From Blastococcus sp. TBT05-19 (GTDB lineage: Bacteria > Actinomycetota > Actinomycetes > Mycobacteriales > Geodermatophilaceae), in the NCBI RefSeq assembly GCF_003319095.1, contig NZ_QOHI01000001.1:434001-498000 (forward strand): a stretch of 64,000 nt of DNA. Reading direction: 5' to 3'. Under the pieces are notes generated by a model. The model worked only from the letters and a program-made list of their open reading frames with translations, was not told the origin of the DNA and did no database searches. Shown one piece after another: positions 33,090-43,116 of this stretch. Both the position numbers and the translations under genes were made by a program. Each line of letters starts with the position of its first letter. The stretch's first letter is position 1.

Positions 33090-33165
33090 GCCCCCGTAGC
33101 TCAGGGGATAGAGCATCGGTTTCCTAAACCGTGTGTCGCAGGTTCGAATCCTGCCGGGGGCACCA
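33090..33165 (+). tRNA. tRNA-Arg (anticodon CCT)
   Basis: A complete cloverleaf: acceptor GCCCCCG (33090-33096) pairs with CGGGGGC (33155-33161), followed by discriminator A and an encoded CCA (33163-33165). The anticodon loop is TTCCTAA with CCT in the middle, decoding AGG, and the T-arm contains GGTTCGAATCC. The 27-43 pair of the anticodon stem is T-T, so four standard pairs hold it. A TAGCCT -10-like hexamer is at 33046-33051. Confidence 0.95.
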
Positions 33166-38094: not shown

Positions 38095-38520
38095 GTGGTG
38101 ACCTCCGAGCAGGGTTACGGGCCCGATCACACGTCGCCGTACGGCTACGGGCTGCACCACGTCATGGTCGCCATCCCGCCGGGCGCCGAGGACCGCTGCC
38201 GCGAGTTCTACGTCGGGCTGCTCGGCATGCTCGAGCTGACCAAGCCGCCGGCGCTGGCCGCGCGTGGCGGGCTCTGGGTCCGAGCCGACACCCTCGAGTT
38301 GCACCTCGGCGTGGAGCAGGACTTCCGCCCCGCCCGCAAGGCGCACCCGGGCATCCGGGTGCAGGACCTCGACGGGCTGGCCGCGGCGCTGACCGGCGCC
38401 GGGGTCGAGGTGAGCTGGGACGAGGACGGCTTCCCCGGTCACCGCCGGTTCTACGCCGCCGACCCGGTGGGCAACCGGCTCGAGTTCATCCAGCGGGACG
38501 GCGCCGTCCCGACCTGGTGA
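38095..38520 (+). CDS. VOC-superfamily (glyoxalase-like) protein
   Basis: 141 residues, one glyoxalase/bleomycin-resistance fold. YGLHHVMVAIPPGAEDRCREFY opens the first module and PGHRRFYAADPVGNRLEFIQ closes the second; the metal ligand candidates are H21/H22 and the Glu in RLEF. The reaction is unknown. Starts with GTG at 38095 (a second GTG follows at once). It converges on the T7SS-associated operon with a 2-bp gap. Confidence 0.85.
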   Translation: MVTSEQGYGPDHTSPYGYGLHHVMVAIPPGAEDRCREFYVGLLGMLELTKPPALAARGGLWVRADTLELHLGVEQDFRPARKAHPGIRVQDLDGLAAALTGAGVEVSWDEDGFPGHRRFYAADPVGNRLEFIQRDGAVPTW

Positions 38521-38522
38521 CG

Positions 38523-39065
38523 TCAGTCGTCGACCAGCTGCAGGCCGGCGGCTGCCGCGTCGGCCAGGGCGACGAGCTCCTCGCCGTGCTCGACGGCCCC
38601 CCACGAGAGGTCGATCCGCAGTCCCGTGCCGCTCCCCAGCGGGACGACGTGCTCCACGGTCTCCGCGATGGTGCCGTCGGCGGCCGCGGTGACCCCGTGC
38701 CGCCGGGCGGCGGGGCCGAGCGGCAGGTCCACGCGACCGAGCTCGGGCGGCACGATGTCGGTCGCCGACTCGGCGGCGAGGTCGGCCAGCACCGCTCCGG
38801 GGTCCTCGCCGCAGGCGACCTGGTGGACGACGAGCACGCCGGCGATCGCCTGCGGCCGGGTCTCCGGCACCAGCACGGCGAAGGCGAGCGGCTCCAGGGG
38901 CTGCAGGTGCTGGGCGATCGTGGCCAGCTGCTCGGCCAGGTCCTCCGGCCGCTCCTTCCCGGCGCAGAGCTCCTCGGCCGTCCGCACCGCCCACTCCCTG
39001 AGGTCGCCCTCCAGCGGCACCGGCACCCAGGGGGCGGCGGGGAGCGAGACCTGGACGCGGGTCAT
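38523..39065 (-). CDS. Hypothetical protein, last of three related proteins in T7SS-associated operon
   Basis: 180 residues, no signal peptide or membrane helix. I do not recognise a named family. The layout (a short LPxxPW-type start, an early helix, a hydrophobic strand pair ending AGVLVVHQ, a later strand LRIDLSWG, then a C-terminal Ala-rich helix) resembles the two preceding proteins of this operon and suggests a shared alpha/beta fold. ATG 39065 overlaps the upstream stop (ATGA). An immunity, chaperone or accessory role is conceivable but not shown. Confidence 0.6.
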   Translation of the reverse strand: MTRVQVSLPAAPWVPVPLEGDLREWAVRTAEELCAGKERPEDLAEQLATIAQHLQPLEPLAFAVLVPETRPQAIAGVLVVHQVACGEDPGAVLADLAAESATDIVPPELGRVDLPLGPAARRHGVTAAADGTIAETVEHVVPLGSGTGLRIDLSWGAVEHGEELVALADAAAAGLQLVDD

Positions 39066-39640
39066 GCCGACCACCGGACCGTGTCGGCGACCGCCTCGAA
39101 CAGCACCGCCAGTGCGTCGGCCACCGCCACCAGCGGGCTGGAGAAGCTGAGCAGCAGCAGGGTTCCCGCCGGGCCCATGAACGTGTAGTCGACGAGCAGC
39201 ACCTCACGGGTGGGGTCCACGCCCAGCTCGGAGGTGCCCAGGCTGTCCACGCGCTGGCGCCGCACGCAGCGGCCGGAGCCGAGCTCGACCAGTGCGGGGC
39301 GGGCCTTCTCGTCGTCCATGTCCCGGGCCACCGCCTCCAGGGACGGGAGGTCGGGCGGCAGGGGGAGGAGGCTGACGACGAGGCTCATCCCGATCGGGAC
39401 ACCGGCCACCGGCTCGAGGCTCACGTACATGTCCACGCCACCGCCCGCCCGTGCGTGCCGCGCCTGGTCGAGCAGGGCCTGGGCGGTCTCCCGGCGGAGC
39501 ACGGGCTGGTTGTCGATGCCGCGGAACTGGCGCTCCACGGCGCCGTCCACGGCCCGGCGCAGGACGGCGTCGTCGGTCAGCGGCAACCGCCACCAGTCGT
39601 CGGGGACGACGAGGCCGAGCTGGGTGGGAACGGTGGTCAC
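39062..39640 (-). CDS. Hypothetical protein, second of three related proteins in T7SS-associated operon
   Basis: 192 residues, predicted cytosolic. It begins TQLGLVVPDDWWRLPL, contains a helix (AQALLDQARHARAGGG), strands MYVSLEP and GMSLVVSLLPLP, a strand block LLLLSFSSP and a C-terminal helix (DALAVLFEAVADTV). The order of these elements matches its neighbours on both sides. GTG 39640 overlaps the preceding stop (GTGA). Function unknown; the fold may be Mog1/PsbP-like, an impression that needs structure prediction. Confidence 0.6.
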   Translation of the reverse strand: MTTVPTQLGLVVPDDWWRLPLTDDAVLRRAVDGAVERQFRGIDNQPVLRRETAQALLDQARHARAGGGVDMYVSLEPVAGVPIGMSLVVSLLPLPPDLPSLEAVARDMDDEKARPALVELGSGRCVRRQRVDSLGTSELGVDPTREVLLVDYTFMGPAGTLLLLSFSSPLVAVADALAVLFEAVADTVRWSA

Positions 39641-40200
39641 CACACCTCCACGAGTGCGTCCCGGGCGATGGCGTCGGCCGTGGCGGCCAGCTCGGCGGCG
39701 TCGGGCCGTCCCGCGGGCCACTGCACGCGCAGCACGACCGCCCCGGGGGCGCCGGGCGGCACCACGACGTGCAGCACCTGCTCGGTGAGCCGGTCGAGCT
39801 CGTCGCGCGCGGTTCCGCGCAGCCGCACCGCCGGCGCGCCGGTCAGCCGGGTCCGGGTCTCCTCCACGGGCGCGCCGGTGCGTGCCATCGCCCGGCGGGA
39901 GGAGGAGGCGAACGCGGCCGGCCCCCGTCGCAGCCAGGAGCGCCGCCGGGTCGGGTAGGTCAGCAGCAAGGCGCGTACCCGCGGCGCCTCGGGGTCCAGG
40001 TGGACCAGCGTCTCGACCGAACCGGTGACGTCGTCGAGGTAGGTCAGGTCGACCAGCTCGTCGGCGACGGCCTGGCGCTCGGCCTCGTCGGCGTCGCGGA
40101 GCTCGTGGTCGAGGAGCCGGGCGATCCAGGCATCGGGGTCGTCGCGCTCCAGCTCGTACCAGCCGCGAGGCAGCGCCAGCCGGGTGGTGAACGACGTCAC
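39637..40200 (-). CDS. Hypothetical protein, first of three related proteins in T7SS-associated operon
   Basis: 187 residues, predicted cytosolic. It begins TRLALPRGWYELERDDPDAW and shows the helix, strand, strand, helix order of its two downstream neighbours: strand pair ETLVHLDP and ALLLTYP, late strand AVVLRVQWP, then a C-terminal helix ending LVEVW. GTG 40200 overlaps the membrane-protein stop by 4 bp (GTGA) and its own stop overlaps the next start. No enzymatic motif is seen. Confidence 0.6.
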   Translation of the reverse strand: MTSFTTRLALPRGWYELERDDPDAWIARLLDHELRDADEAERQAVADELVDLTYLDDVTGSVETLVHLDPEAPRVRALLLTYPTRRRSWLRRGPAAFASSSRRAMARTGAPVEETRTRLTGAPAVRLRGTARDELDRLTEQVLHVVVPPGAPGAVVLRVQWPAGRPDAAELAATADAIARDALVEVW

Positions 40201-41396
40201 CGGGGGGCGTCCAGCACGCGGGCCAGCCCGCGCAGGAGGACCGGTCCCCAGAGGAAGGTGGCGTTGAGCAGCCCCAGCACGAGGGTCGCCCGGGACTCGT
40301 AGCCCCAGGCGACGCCGGCGAGCGGGGCGATCGTGACGCCCACGTTCAGCTGGCCGTCGCGGATGACGCCGAGGCCGCCCGGCGGCTCGAAGTTCTGCAG
40401 GTACACGCGCTCCGAGCGAGGGCGCAGGAGGATCTCGCCCGCCACCGGGCCCAGGCCCTCGCCGGAGGTCCGTTCCACGGGGATGCCGCGCTGCCGGAAG
40501 GCCTCGAGCCGGCCGGCGTCCTCGCCGAACCACTGGTCCCACGGCAGCCGGACCACCTGGCGGCCGAGACCGTCGACGAGGTCGAGCCGCTCGGGCCGGT
40601 CCGCGCCGGGTGGGGTGACGACCAGTGCCTTCTGCACCCCGAGCGGGGAGGACGGGCCGTCGACCCGGAACTGGAGGCGGGTGGCGTCGCGGACGACCAG
40701 CGTCTCCGCCGGTCCCGCGGGCCCGGTCAGGACGAGGCGGGCGGTCCGGCGGAACAGGCGGGTGGTCGGCACGGAGGGGCGGGGCGTGATCTCGTCCCCC
40801 GCCGGCAGGTGGCGTCCGCGCCGACGCCGCAGGAGCTGCTCGACGGCGAGCACGAGGGCGCAGGCGGTCGTCAGGGCGAGGGTGGCGGGGGCCAGGTCCG
40901 GCAGCCCCACCAGGGGGGCCAGGACGTAGGAGGTCAGCAGCCACAGCACCGCCGAGACGTACATCGCGATGCTCACCCACCAGGCGGACGACCTGCGGGT
41001 GCTCCCGGGCCGCACGTCCACCGGTGCGGTGACCTTCCTGCGCACCACGGGCAGGCCGGCGGCGGCGGCCAGCTCCTGGAGCCCGGTCCACTCGACCGGG
41101 TCCTCCAGCCCGCCGCGGCTGCGGTCGGACAGGTCGACCTCGGGGGGTGTCCAGTCGGCGAGGTCGAGCACGGCGACCGGCTGCTGGTCCCGGCCGAGGA
41201 ACGCGGCGACGCCTGCTCCGCCCTCGGTCGCGGACCAGACCACCGTCTCCACGTCCTCACCGACGCGCAGGACGCGCTGCCCGGCACTGGTGTCGAGCAC
41301 GACCTCCCCCGCCCGGGCGGTCACGGTCGCGGCGACCGCCCTCGGCTCGCGCCCGCCGCCGCTGCGCAGCCGCACCTCGGTGCCCGCTCGCGTCAT
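40197..41396 (-). CDS. Membrane protein in T7SS-associated operon
   Basis: 399 residues. An N-terminal soluble region (1-135) is followed by two transmembrane helices (about 139-161 and 166-188), a soluble middle (about 200-350) and a hydrophobic C-terminus (about 360-395). No family is recognised. It overlaps the T7SS-signal-bearing gene (ATGA) and the next small gene (GTGA). Possible roles are an immunity protein against a membrane-acting effector, or an envelope adaptor; both are speculation from position. Confidence 0.62.
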   Translation of the reverse strand: MTRAGTEVRLRSGGGREPRAVAATVTARAGEVVLDTSAGQRVLRVGEDVETVVWSATEGGAGVAAFLGRDQQPVAVLDLADWTPPEVDLSDRSRGGLEDPVEWTGLQELAAAAGLPVVRRKVTAPVDVRPGSTRRSSAWWVSIAMYVSAVLWLLTSYVLAPLVGLPDLAPATLALTTACALVLAVEQLLRRRRGRHLPAGDEITPRPSVPTTRLFRRTARLVLTGPAGPAETLVVRDATRLQFRVDGPSSPLGVQKALVVTPPGADRPERLDLVDGLGRQVVRLPWDQWFGEDAGRLEAFRQRGIPVERTSGEGLGPVAGEILLRPRSERVYLQNFEPPGGLGVIRDGQLNVGVTIAPLAGVAWGYESRATLVLGLLNATFLWGPVLLRGLARVLDAPR

Positions 41397-42835
41397 GGGG
41401 CGGCCGGGGTGCTCGGGATGCTCGACGACGGCACCTCGAAGCCCTCGGGGAGCTGGGACGCCGGCGCGTCGACGTGCGCCGGCGGGGGGTTGTCGCCGGC
41501 CACGAGTCCCCACACCTCCCCGCCGTCGCGACGAGCAGCCCACAGGTTCGCACCGACCGCGCCGGCGCTCTGGCCTCCGGTCAGCACCGCCCCCGCAGCC
41601 AGCTCGCCGTTCCAGACCTGCTGCCTGATCCCGGTCAGCGCGCGGATCTCGGGCCCGACGTCGACGTAGTTCCCGACCGCCTGCCAGTTCCCGCCCGCGA
41701 AGGCGGCGCGCGTCTCGGTCCACCCGGCGGTCCACGTCGTCCGCGGGTGACGCAGCGCGGAGAGCGCGTCGGCCACCACCGCCCGCGGAGCCCTCACGCC
41801 CTCCGCCAGGCCGTCGGTGAGGTTGCCGAGGTAGCCCCGGTCCCCGTGCGCCCGCTGGGGCGCGCGCATCCGGCCACCGATGAGCTGGAAGGCGCCGTCC
41901 CGGCGCGCCCGGGAGTTGCCGCTCACGAGCGCCCGGGCGCGGGTGAACGCACGGCCACGGGTGGCCATCGCGGTCAGCTTGGCGCCGCTGGCGAGCACCC
42001 GGCCGAACCCGAACAGCGCGAGCCCCAGCAGGTCGGACTTGATCTGGTCCAGGCGGTCCTTCCCGCTGAGCTGCAGCCCCACGTTGAGGAGCAGCGAGGC
42101 CGCCGTCAGGAGCAGGGTGGCCGCGGCCAGGACTTGACCCACCACGGGCACCCAGCACAGCACGAGCGCCAGGATCCCGGTGATCGCGGCGAGCGCACTG
42201 GCGATGTTGGCGAGGCTCTTGACGACGCCGAGGGCGTTGTCCTTCCAGCTGTCGTTCAGCCCGTCGCCGTCGATCGCCTCCTGCAGCAGGCCCGCGGCGC
42301 GGTTCGCGGCCGCGTGCTGGTCGTCGTGCGCTCGCTGGACGTCGTTCTTCGCCCGCTGCAGCTCCGAGGAGGCGTGCTCGAGGTCGCGCTGTGCCGCGTT
42401 GCGGGCAGCGGTGACGGTCGGGTCCTCGGGCTCCCCGGCGACCGTGGGGGTGTTCCCCAGCCGGTCCAGGCTGCGCTGGGCGGACTCCTCCAGGTCGCGT
42501 GCCTGGCGGGCGCGGGACAGGGCGGCGTCGGCGGTGACCTGGGCGGCGTGCTGCTCCGGGTGGTAGCCCTCCAGGGCCTCCGCGGCGGCGGCGTACCGGG
42601 TCTGCAGCCGGCCGACCTGCTCCGACAGGTCACGGGTGCGCTCGCGCAGGGCCTCGCCACCCTTGCCCTGGTAGGCGGTGCCGTCGGCGATGCGCCCGAG
42701 GTTCGCCGACGCCGTCGCCACCGCCTCGGCGGTGCGGCGGTAGCGCAGGGCCAGGTCGGCGACCCGGTCGGGATCCCCCGGGGTCGGATCGCTGCTCCAA
42801 TCCACGGGTGACCAGTCGCGAGGCCGGCCCATCAC
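41393..42835 (-). CDS. Putative T7SS-exported protein (T7SS-signal-like N-terminus, unknown C-terminus)
   Basis: 480 residues. The N-terminal about 185 residues carry the layout of the actinobacterial T7SS_signal domain: DWSPVDWSSDPTPGDPDRVADLA (two parts, 7-16 and 17-29), then AYQGKGGEALRERTRDL and long helices with an A-rich heptad pattern. A hydrophobic hairpin follows (about 207-256). The last about 220 residues match no toxin I know and end in a Pro/Ser-rich tail. Start GTG 42835 overlaps the upstream stop (GTGA); ATG 42832 is an alternative. Export and toxicity are inferred. Confidence 0.72.
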   Translation of the reverse strand: MMGRPRDWSPVDWSSDPTPGDPDRVADLALRYRRTAEAVATASANLGRIADGTAYQGKGGEALRERTRDLSEQVGRLQTRYAAAAEALEGYHPEQHAAQVTADAALSRARQARDLEESAQRSLDRLGNTPTVAGEPEDPTVTAARNAAQRDLEHASSELQRAKNDVQRAHDDQHAAANRAAGLLQEAIDGDGLNDSWKDNALGVVKSLANIASALAAITGILALVLCWVPVVGQVLAAATLLLTAASLLLNVGLQLSGKDRLDQIKSDLLGLALFGFGRVLASGAKLTAMATRGRAFTRARALVSGNSRARRDGAFQLIGGRMRAPQRAHGDRGYLGNLTDGLAEGVRAPRAVVADALSALRHPRTTWTAGWTETRAAFAGGNWQAVGNYVDVGPEIRALTGIRQQVWNGELAAGAVLTGGQSAGAVGANLWAARRDGGEVWGLVAGDNPPPAHVDAPASQLPEGFEVPSSSIPSTPAAP

Positions 42836-43116
42836 TCGCCCCTCAGGGCAGCGACCAGGTGCTGCTCGATGTCCTCGAAGGCCTTGCCGGCCTCCTCGAC
42901 GACCTCACCGAGGCCGTCGATGCCGTCGCGGAGGTCGTTGCGGCGGTCGTCCCAGGAGCCCTGCATCTCGTCCAGCGTGTCGGCGAGGCGCCGGTGCCCG
43001 ACCGCGTCGGAGTAGTCCTCGACGATGTTCTCCGCGTCGCGCAGCTCTCCCGCGAGCAGGCGCAGCGCGGCGCCGGTCTCCCGGAGCTCCTGCGTGTCCA
43101 ACTTCAGATCGGGCAC
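42832..43116 (-). CDS. ESAT-6/WXG100-like small helical protein
   Basis: 94 residues, almost all helical, with two long amphipathic helices joined near QGSWDDRRND (about 52-61). The central tryptophan turn and length suit the WXG100/ESAT-6 superfamily, though the exact W-x-G triplet is not present (SWDD). It would be the partner or co-substrate of the T7SS-signal protein encoded next, with which it overlaps by 4 bp. Start GTG 43116 has a GGAGGCGG purine stretch upstream. It is the first gene of the six-gene operon. Confidence 0.68.
   Translation of the reverse strand: MPDLKLDTQELRETGAALRLLAGELRDAENIVEDYSDAVGHRRLADTLDEMQGSWDDRRNDLRDGIDGLGEVVEEAGKAFEDIEQHLVAALRGE

Follow-up and report, generated by a model that had tools for sequence, protein, structure and literature searches.

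A conserved six-gene module of Blastococcus linked to type VII secretion, with three small proteins that are most likely Eag-like chaperones

The 64,000-nucleotide stretch of Blastococcus sp. TBT05-19 analysed here (the window; contig NZ_QOHI01000001.1, positions 434,001 to 498,000) carries on its minus strand, at positions 38523-43116, an array of six genes, P1 to P6, in which every neighbouring pair overlaps. These genes form a real, conserved module linked to the type VII secretion system (T7SS), and the three small proteins at its end are most likely chaperones resembling the Eag proteins of the type VI secretion system (T6SS). The six genes are best read, with a probability of roughly 0.65, as one accessory T7SS effector module, in which P1 and P2 would be the cargo and P4-P6 the chaperones or adaptors working with an EssC-like ATPase. 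Gene order, homology, the modelled fold of P5, the T7SS linkage and one case in which a small protein follows the N-terminus of its partner were computed directly. The features are as follows.

42832..43116, minus strand: P1, 94 residues, small helical WXG100/EspC-like partner protein (WXG100 Pfam E 0.003, sub-threshold)
42865..42879, minus strand: FEDIE, the P1 form of a YxxxD/E-like C-terminal motif (motif count in P1 homologues)
41393..42835, minus strand: P2, 479-480 residues, candidate T7SS effector or carrier (Pfam T7SS_signal, 24.2 bits)
42275..42778, minus strand: P2 residues 19-186, T7SS_signal/WXG-like helical region (Pfam and profile match to EsxA)
42140..42226, minus strand: P2 residues 203-231, hydrophobic membrane segment or hairpin (hydropathy)
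41477..41962, minus strand: P2 residues 291-452, fast-evolving C-terminal region (identity to LR1)
40197..41396, minus strand: P3, 399 residues, membrane protein with two predicted beta-rich domains, hydrophobic helices after each (hydropathy, low-confidence model)
39637..40200, minus strand: P4, 187 residues, third member of the P4-P5-P6 family (iterative profile search, tree)
39062..39640, minus strand: P5, 192 residues, beta-type member, predicted Mog1/PsbP fold (AlphaFold2, Foldseek/VIA)
38523..39065, minus strand: P6, 180 residues, alpha-type member of the P4-P5-P6 family (iterative profile search, tree)

A first-pass annotation of this DNA had described six overlapping genes with 4-bp overlaps throughout. 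All five junctions do overlap, and junctions 2/3, 3/4, 4/5 and 5/6 are ATGA/GTGA overlaps of 4 bp each; at junction 1/2, the overlap is 4 bp if P2 starts at GTG 42835 and 1 bp if it starts at ATG 42832. A relative, Blastococcus sp. LR1, has the same six genes in the same order, with protein identities of 84, 62, 60, 73, 78 and 76% for P1 to P6, four overlaps of 4 bp and a 1/2 junction of the window's form. Around the module, the DNA of the two strains can be aligned in large blocks with identities of 85-91%, the block holding the second half of the module being at 76%. Codon-usage scores, from a simple custom caller trained on the window and LR1, are positive for all six genes (53.7 to 159.7), and because of these scores and the conserved junctions a chance array is excluded.

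Iterative hidden Markov model searches place P4, P5 and P6 in a single paralogous family. The AlphaFold2 model of P5 (predicted local distance difference test, pLDDT, 91.2; predicted template-modelling score 0.87) matches SciW, EagT6, DcrB, Mog1 and PsbP in Foldseek/VIA, with SciW as the best Foldseek match (E 7.9e-4), and the Mog1/PsbP fold that T6SS Eag chaperones have is predicted for P5 with confidence; P4 and P6 are assigned to this fold through homology only. The last four genes had been described as matching no recognised family, which holds at the level of Pfam and NCBIfam (sub-threshold matches only), but the last three are one family with a known fold. In the tree, the branch of P4 contains the window and LR1 only, and loci with two or more rows hold one alpha-type and one beta-type member in 24/24 cases; long branches that meet, including those of P5 and P6, were flagged by the tree tool. 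In a search that took in EspG and not EsaE, P4-P6 had no EspG match (E up to 10), though a distant relation may exist. By sequence, the P4-6 profile gave eight matches to solved structures, mainly designed proteins, with no Mog1/PsbP relative. Longer P4-6 matches of 334-382 residues lie just upstream of P1 in five loci (L012:6277-7425, L065:8226-9236, L068:8099-9247, L071:8304-9434 and L072:5279-6283); that of L012 has membrane segments at its C-terminus, and these proteins are perhaps membrane-tethered versions.

P1 and P2 travel as a pair. A P1 homologue lies directly upstream of P2 on the same strand in 30/30 family P2 loci, window and LR1 included, and the gene-order conservation that the first-pass annotation had proposed as a check is therefore present. 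The two genes overlap by 1-4 bp in 28 of the 30 loci, one exception being the window's own pair, for which a downstream start was called. Residue W55 of P1 is invariant over 29 aligned rows. The motif YxxxD/E, which reportedly marks T7SS substrates (Daleke and colleagues, 2012), occurs in the C-terminal half of 18/29 P1 homologues (shuffle mean 5.7, maximum 11), and the pattern [YFW]xxx[DE], counted without a shuffle control, in 29/29; among 54 distant P1-like proteins the respective counts are 18 and 45. In the motif of the window's own P1 (FEDIE), F stands in place of Y. When compared with solved structures, the P1 profile finds designed helical proteins for the most part, with an ESAT-6-like protein ranking behind them (E 0.0048), and these matches say little beyond 'helical'. 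The T7SS-signal-like N-terminus originally noticed in P2 is upheld by its homologues, of which 16/28 match T7SS_signal (best 5.3e-13) and 13/28 match WXG100 at E <= 0.01, while the window's P2 reaches 24.2 bits against a cut-off of 27. The best solved-structure match of the P2 family profile is an EsxA (profile positions 21-99, E 2.8e-4), and the LXG domain of Pfam is matched neither by the window's P2 (E up to 10) nor by the 28 homologues (E up to 0.01). A hydrophobic segment is present in 28/28 aligned homologues. Identity of P2 between the window and LR1 is 85% over residues 1-200, 63% over 201-290, 35% over 291-452 and 67% over the last 27; it is lowest in the tail, which therefore evolves fastest.

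An EssC-like ATPase locus lies 287 kb from the module in the same genome. The ATPase contains FHA and FtsK domains and scores 549 bits against the EssC profile (cut-off 778) and 424 and 287 bits against the EccC domain profiles. A Ser/Thr kinase gene is located upstream of it, and downstream are P1-like, P2-like and P5-like genes, a membrane protein gene and a true WXG100 gene, the P1-P2-P5 set being a diverged copy. The window itself had been said to hold no EccB/C/D or mycosin, and none was seen among its 61 called genes, a judgement made by eye on the opening 70 residues of every protein and with no family search. An ESX core had been expected elsewhere in the genome; the locus found has a T7SS ATPase of EssC-like, FHA-containing type, and because EccB (TIGR03919) is missing from 23/23 genus genomes (it occurs in 13/112 genomes of the taxonomic family), its core is not canonical ESX. 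Homologous modules adjoin EssC-like ATPases, as the anticipated co-occurrence with ESX cores would have it: in L054, L057 and L060 the genes run ATPase, beta, P1, P2, P3-like, alpha, with a 4-bp overlap between the first two. Together with the conserved order, this linkage supports the earlier proposal of a single T7SS effector-like unit. Among 296 genomes of the class, a T7SS-type ATPase (called at E <= 1e-50 with the EssC profile, a threshold chosen to keep FtsK out) is present in 44/45 with a P4-6 match versus 159/251 without one (Fisher 3e-7). An ATPase at least 75% identical to that of the module's own genome occurs in 21/112 family genomes, and the module in 18 of these 21 and in 3 of the other 91, an association for which the Fisher test ignores shared ancestry. 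The T6SS sheath gene VipB was found in 0/20 module-bearing genomes, of which 17 have a completeness of at least 90%. A 920-residue protein (L010:2918-5680), encoded two genes ahead of the kinase in the T7SS locus, matches nothing in Pfam or NCBIfam at E <= 0.001 and could be the envelope-spanning part of the T7SS.

The P4-6 profile matches 61/394 genomes of the class. From the 59 matching genomes other than G000 and G012, 40 distant loci were hand-picked, one per genome; a called P4-6 gene at threshold is present in 34, a P1-like gene in 36, a P2-like gene in 30 and both of the latter in 29, and an EssC-like gene in 21. Seven of the loci contain an Rhs gene, in all cases fused to a P2 head, and an eighth P2-Rhs fusion, L077, has an Ntox24 end. 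In 8/8 fusions the head, hydrophobic segment and Rhs follow in that order, with the segment between the T7SS signal and Rhs; the segment is also found in 29/30 distant non-Rhs P2-like proteins. The three P2-Rhs proteins that were scanned match T7SS_signal under the cut-off, and PAAR was unmatched in these three and in L077. Six of the seven Rhs loci have a beta-type member only or none, and L129 also has separate modules with alpha. Three large actinomycete Rhs proteins (L143:9532-14247, L145:2636-7354 and L146:9107-13816) have nearly alike T7SS heads and different end domains, which amounts to a natural toxin swap. Between L143/L145 and L146, the beta proteins are 84% and the N-terminal regions 91% identical, as against 38-39% for the last 150 residues; the toxin end of L143, shared with L145, matches a Tse2-like ADP-ribosyltransferase, and that of L146 is different and unmatched. 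The beta protein of L125 is 68-69% identical to those of all three, and its toxin end is 61-64% identical to L143/L145 versus 33% to L146. The incomplete toxin ends of L136 and L129 were not used in this argument. In these sequences beta tracks the delivery head at the N-terminus, not the toxin domain, in one clear swap that belongs to distant relatives and not to the window, and because of this tracking P4-P6 probably act as chaperones or adaptors and not in immunity.

The six genes are an accessory unit, and modules of this kind are gained and lost. Its Sir2-like neighbour gene (named by eye) is found in 23/23 genus genomes, and the stretch upstream of that gene lacks P1, P2, P3, P5 and P6 in 20/20 relatives, which are 20 of the 21 genus genomes left after the window's genome and LR1 (tblastn E <= 1e-8; P4 not queried). 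In G003 and G006 the flanking genes adjoin with a gap of about 100 bp or less, representing an empty site. Within the taxonomic family, the P2 profile matches 21/112 genomes and the P5 profile 19/112, all 19 within those 21. The window's genome has three more copies, on contigs C12 and C20 and beside the T7SS ATPase. Contig scans of relatives' genomes found P3 in no relative and P2 in LR1 only, and a single-protein search with P3 gave 1/59 relatives besides the own genome; the reading of a rare module drawn from the latter search was dropped when profile searches found a wider spread. Alignment A7 (53 rows) left out the pair of L059, one L071 row, remnants and proteins with the domain fused to others, and alignment A8 left out L074, the Rhs fusion L077 and the window's second copy. 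Directly before the C12 module lies a 1212-residue protein resembling, by eye, a TrwC/MobF relaxase-helicase (L064:630-4268), hinting at a mobile element. The 295-residue gene L074:6056-6943 joins a P2 head to the apparent end of a P4-6-type protein and matches both families; it looks as if a deletion took out the middle of a module. In the window, a glyoxalase-like gene (by eye; 38095-38520) lies between the module and a CorC-like gene, whereas none was called there in LR1, the remaining neighbourhood being syntenic; the site is therefore variable. The sole tRNA of the window is a tRNA-Arg (CCT) at 33090-33165, and no integrase was seen by eye among the called genes.

We infer secretion, shielding of the P2 hairpin, action on a target membrane and a role for P3 as follows. 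P1 and P2 would pair as helical hairpins and constitute the exported cargo, P2 supplying the targeting region, the membrane hairpin and the variable tail. In the cytosol P5 (beta), with alpha P6 or P4, would cover the P2 hairpin and block self-insertion, a shielding suggested by fold and context, and the cytosolic P4-P6 chaperones or adaptors would bring P1-P2 to the distant EssC-like ATPase. Outside the cell the hairpin may enter the target membrane, Rhs versions carrying their toxin along. The membrane protein P3 may provide a docking site for the complex; protection of the producer is the less likely role. Four related modules encode a P3 homologue (E 4e-8 to 3e-11); the low-confidence model of P3 (pLDDT 59.8) has weak Foldseek matches only, several of them PH or tandem-PH proteins and none at E <= 0.001, which is a hint only of a PH-like fold. 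Head, hairpin and chaperone would form a general loading device, the same set of P1, P2 head and P5-like protein going with Rhs toxins elsewhere. We give even odds to the broader proposal, namely that actinomycetes possess a class of Eag-fold T7SS chaperones, often an obligate alpha/beta pair, which solubilises hairpins for an EssC-like ATPase as a loader common to Rhs and non-Rhs cargo, so that two unrelated machines share one solution.

The small proteins could instead be immunity proteins that neutralise P2, with P1-P2 as an antibacterial toxin, and the immunity protein Tsi3 has the same fold. This is unlikely, since in L143/L145 versus L146 beta keeps to the T7SS head instead of following the toxin, multi-row loci hold one alpha and one beta (24/24) rather than strings of variants, L054/L057/L060 couple beta to the ATPase at the gene level, and between the window and LR1 P4-P6 remain 73-78% identical while the P2 tail is at 35%. 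The accessory or immunity partners of the first-pass annotation are, for P4-P6, better regarded as chaperones or adaptors on the strength of one clear case; immunity is more open for P3. Slightly less probable again is that P1-P2 and the Mog1-like proteins serve the EssC-like machine itself as accessory or regulatory components, acting in assembly or substrate gating, with solo modules as spare copies. A T7SS-linked copy is indeed kept in the own genome and the Pfam scan of non-Rhs P2 homologues yielded no toxin family, but eight loci have this head joined to Rhs, modules come and go at sites away from the ATPase, and the P2 tail diverges much faster than the head. A role in the cell envelope unrelated to T7SS, in which proteins of LpqN-like fold would handle lipids or cell-wall factors together with a membrane protein, appears quite improbable: the linkage to T7SS is strong throughout the class and P4-P6 show by eye neither signal peptide nor lipobox, even though the fold is common to LpqN, Apa, MTC28 and the PknH extracellular domain and P4 has a weak Lpp-LpqN match (E 0.1).

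Several results weigh against an effector module with Eag-like chaperones. The Foldseek template-modelling scores of P5 are low to moderate (SciW 0.34-0.48, LpqN 0.49-0.54), LpqN and two uncharacterised proteins rank at or above SciW in VIA, and the Mog1/PsbP fold has many roles, among them those of PsbP, LpqN and Tsi3. DUF1795, the Pfam family of the Eag chaperones, was unmatched in 53 members of the P4-6 family (E up to 1) and in four distant ones (E up to 0.1). P1 and P2 of the window both score under Pfam cut-offs, and no toxin domain is recognisable in P2. A glycine-zipper, membrane-depolarising P2 tail was tried as a candidate and rejected, the test being negative (119 observed against 101 expected from shuffles; p<0.05 in 0/28 members). 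Some T7SS-type ATPase occurs in 110/112 genomes of the taxonomic family, and because it is near-universal there, genome-level co-occurrence is uninformative at that rank; the association with the closer ATPase is partly shared ancestry, and 3/21 genomes that have this ATPase lack the module while 3/91 that lack the ATPase carry one. No T7SS ATPase was detected in module-bearing G207 (84% complete). Finally, the locus profiles applied to the distant loci matched 0/234 control genes, but these were Blastococcus genes and not genes of the distant genomes, and ordinary WXG100 proteins may be among what the P1 profile matches.

The module resembles several known systems in part. The sections of PMC11217815 drawn on here define T7SSc-T7SSj, attribute an FHA-bearing ATPase and a kinase to T7SSd of Actinomycetota, with Olsenella and Bifidobacterium among its carriers, note Rhs substrates, and mention EspG/EsaE and Lap partners. 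Like this T7SSd, the own locus has an FHA-bearing EssC-like ATPase, a Ser/Thr kinase and a WXG100 gene, whereas no Mog1/PsbP protein is named in those sections. The T6SS Eag chaperones (SciW, EagT6, EagR), which according to excerpts of PMC12881460 and PMC8636562 hold membrane segments of Rhs effectors and Tse6 ahead of insertion, share with the module the Mog1/PsbP fold (P5 model), a small gene beside a candidate effector with membrane helices after an N-terminal delivery region and, as in Eag systems with Rhs/prePAAR effectors, an Rhs protein as effector in some distant loci. Unlike Eag systems, the module has a T7SS_signal/WXG-like delivery region with no PAAR match in the scanned proteins, a P1 partner, often an alpha/beta pair and no DUF1795 match, and its genomes lack a T6SS sheath gene (0/20). 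T7SSb LXG toxins with Lap partners have a comparable helical targeting domain, co-encoded small WXG-like partner and adjoining EssC-type ATPase; however, LXG is unmatched in Pfam, and the module's partners include Mog1/PsbP-fold proteins, not just helical ones. The PE/PPE proteins of ESX systems are small and long helical partners with a dedicated cytosolic chaperone, EspG. The module likewise has small and long helical partners and candidate cytosolic chaperones, but its proteins match no EspG, PE or PPE, and the genus is without EccB.

To our knowledge, beyond EspG, EsaE and Lap partners, it is unexplained how T7SS effectors with membrane segments are kept soluble before export. The module offers a small tractable system for this question, with a candidate effector pair, candidate chaperones of known fold, a linked ATPase and natural Rhs versions. 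Among the open-licence papers listed in searches and judged mostly by title, none has a title describing a link of T7SS to Eag, DUF1795 or Mog1/PsbP proteins. The occurrence of PsbP/MOG1 genes in T6SS operons is recorded in the portion of PMC3482391 used here, and the corresponding portion of PMC12419801 takes the PsbP/MOG1 domain as diagnostic of T6SS. If the proposed explanation is true, a PsbP/MOG1 gene near a toxin would no longer be a sign of T6SS, contrary to that portion of PMC12419801, and the combination of membrane hairpin and Mog1/PsbP chaperone, treated as a T6SS hallmark, would be a solution common to two unrelated machines.

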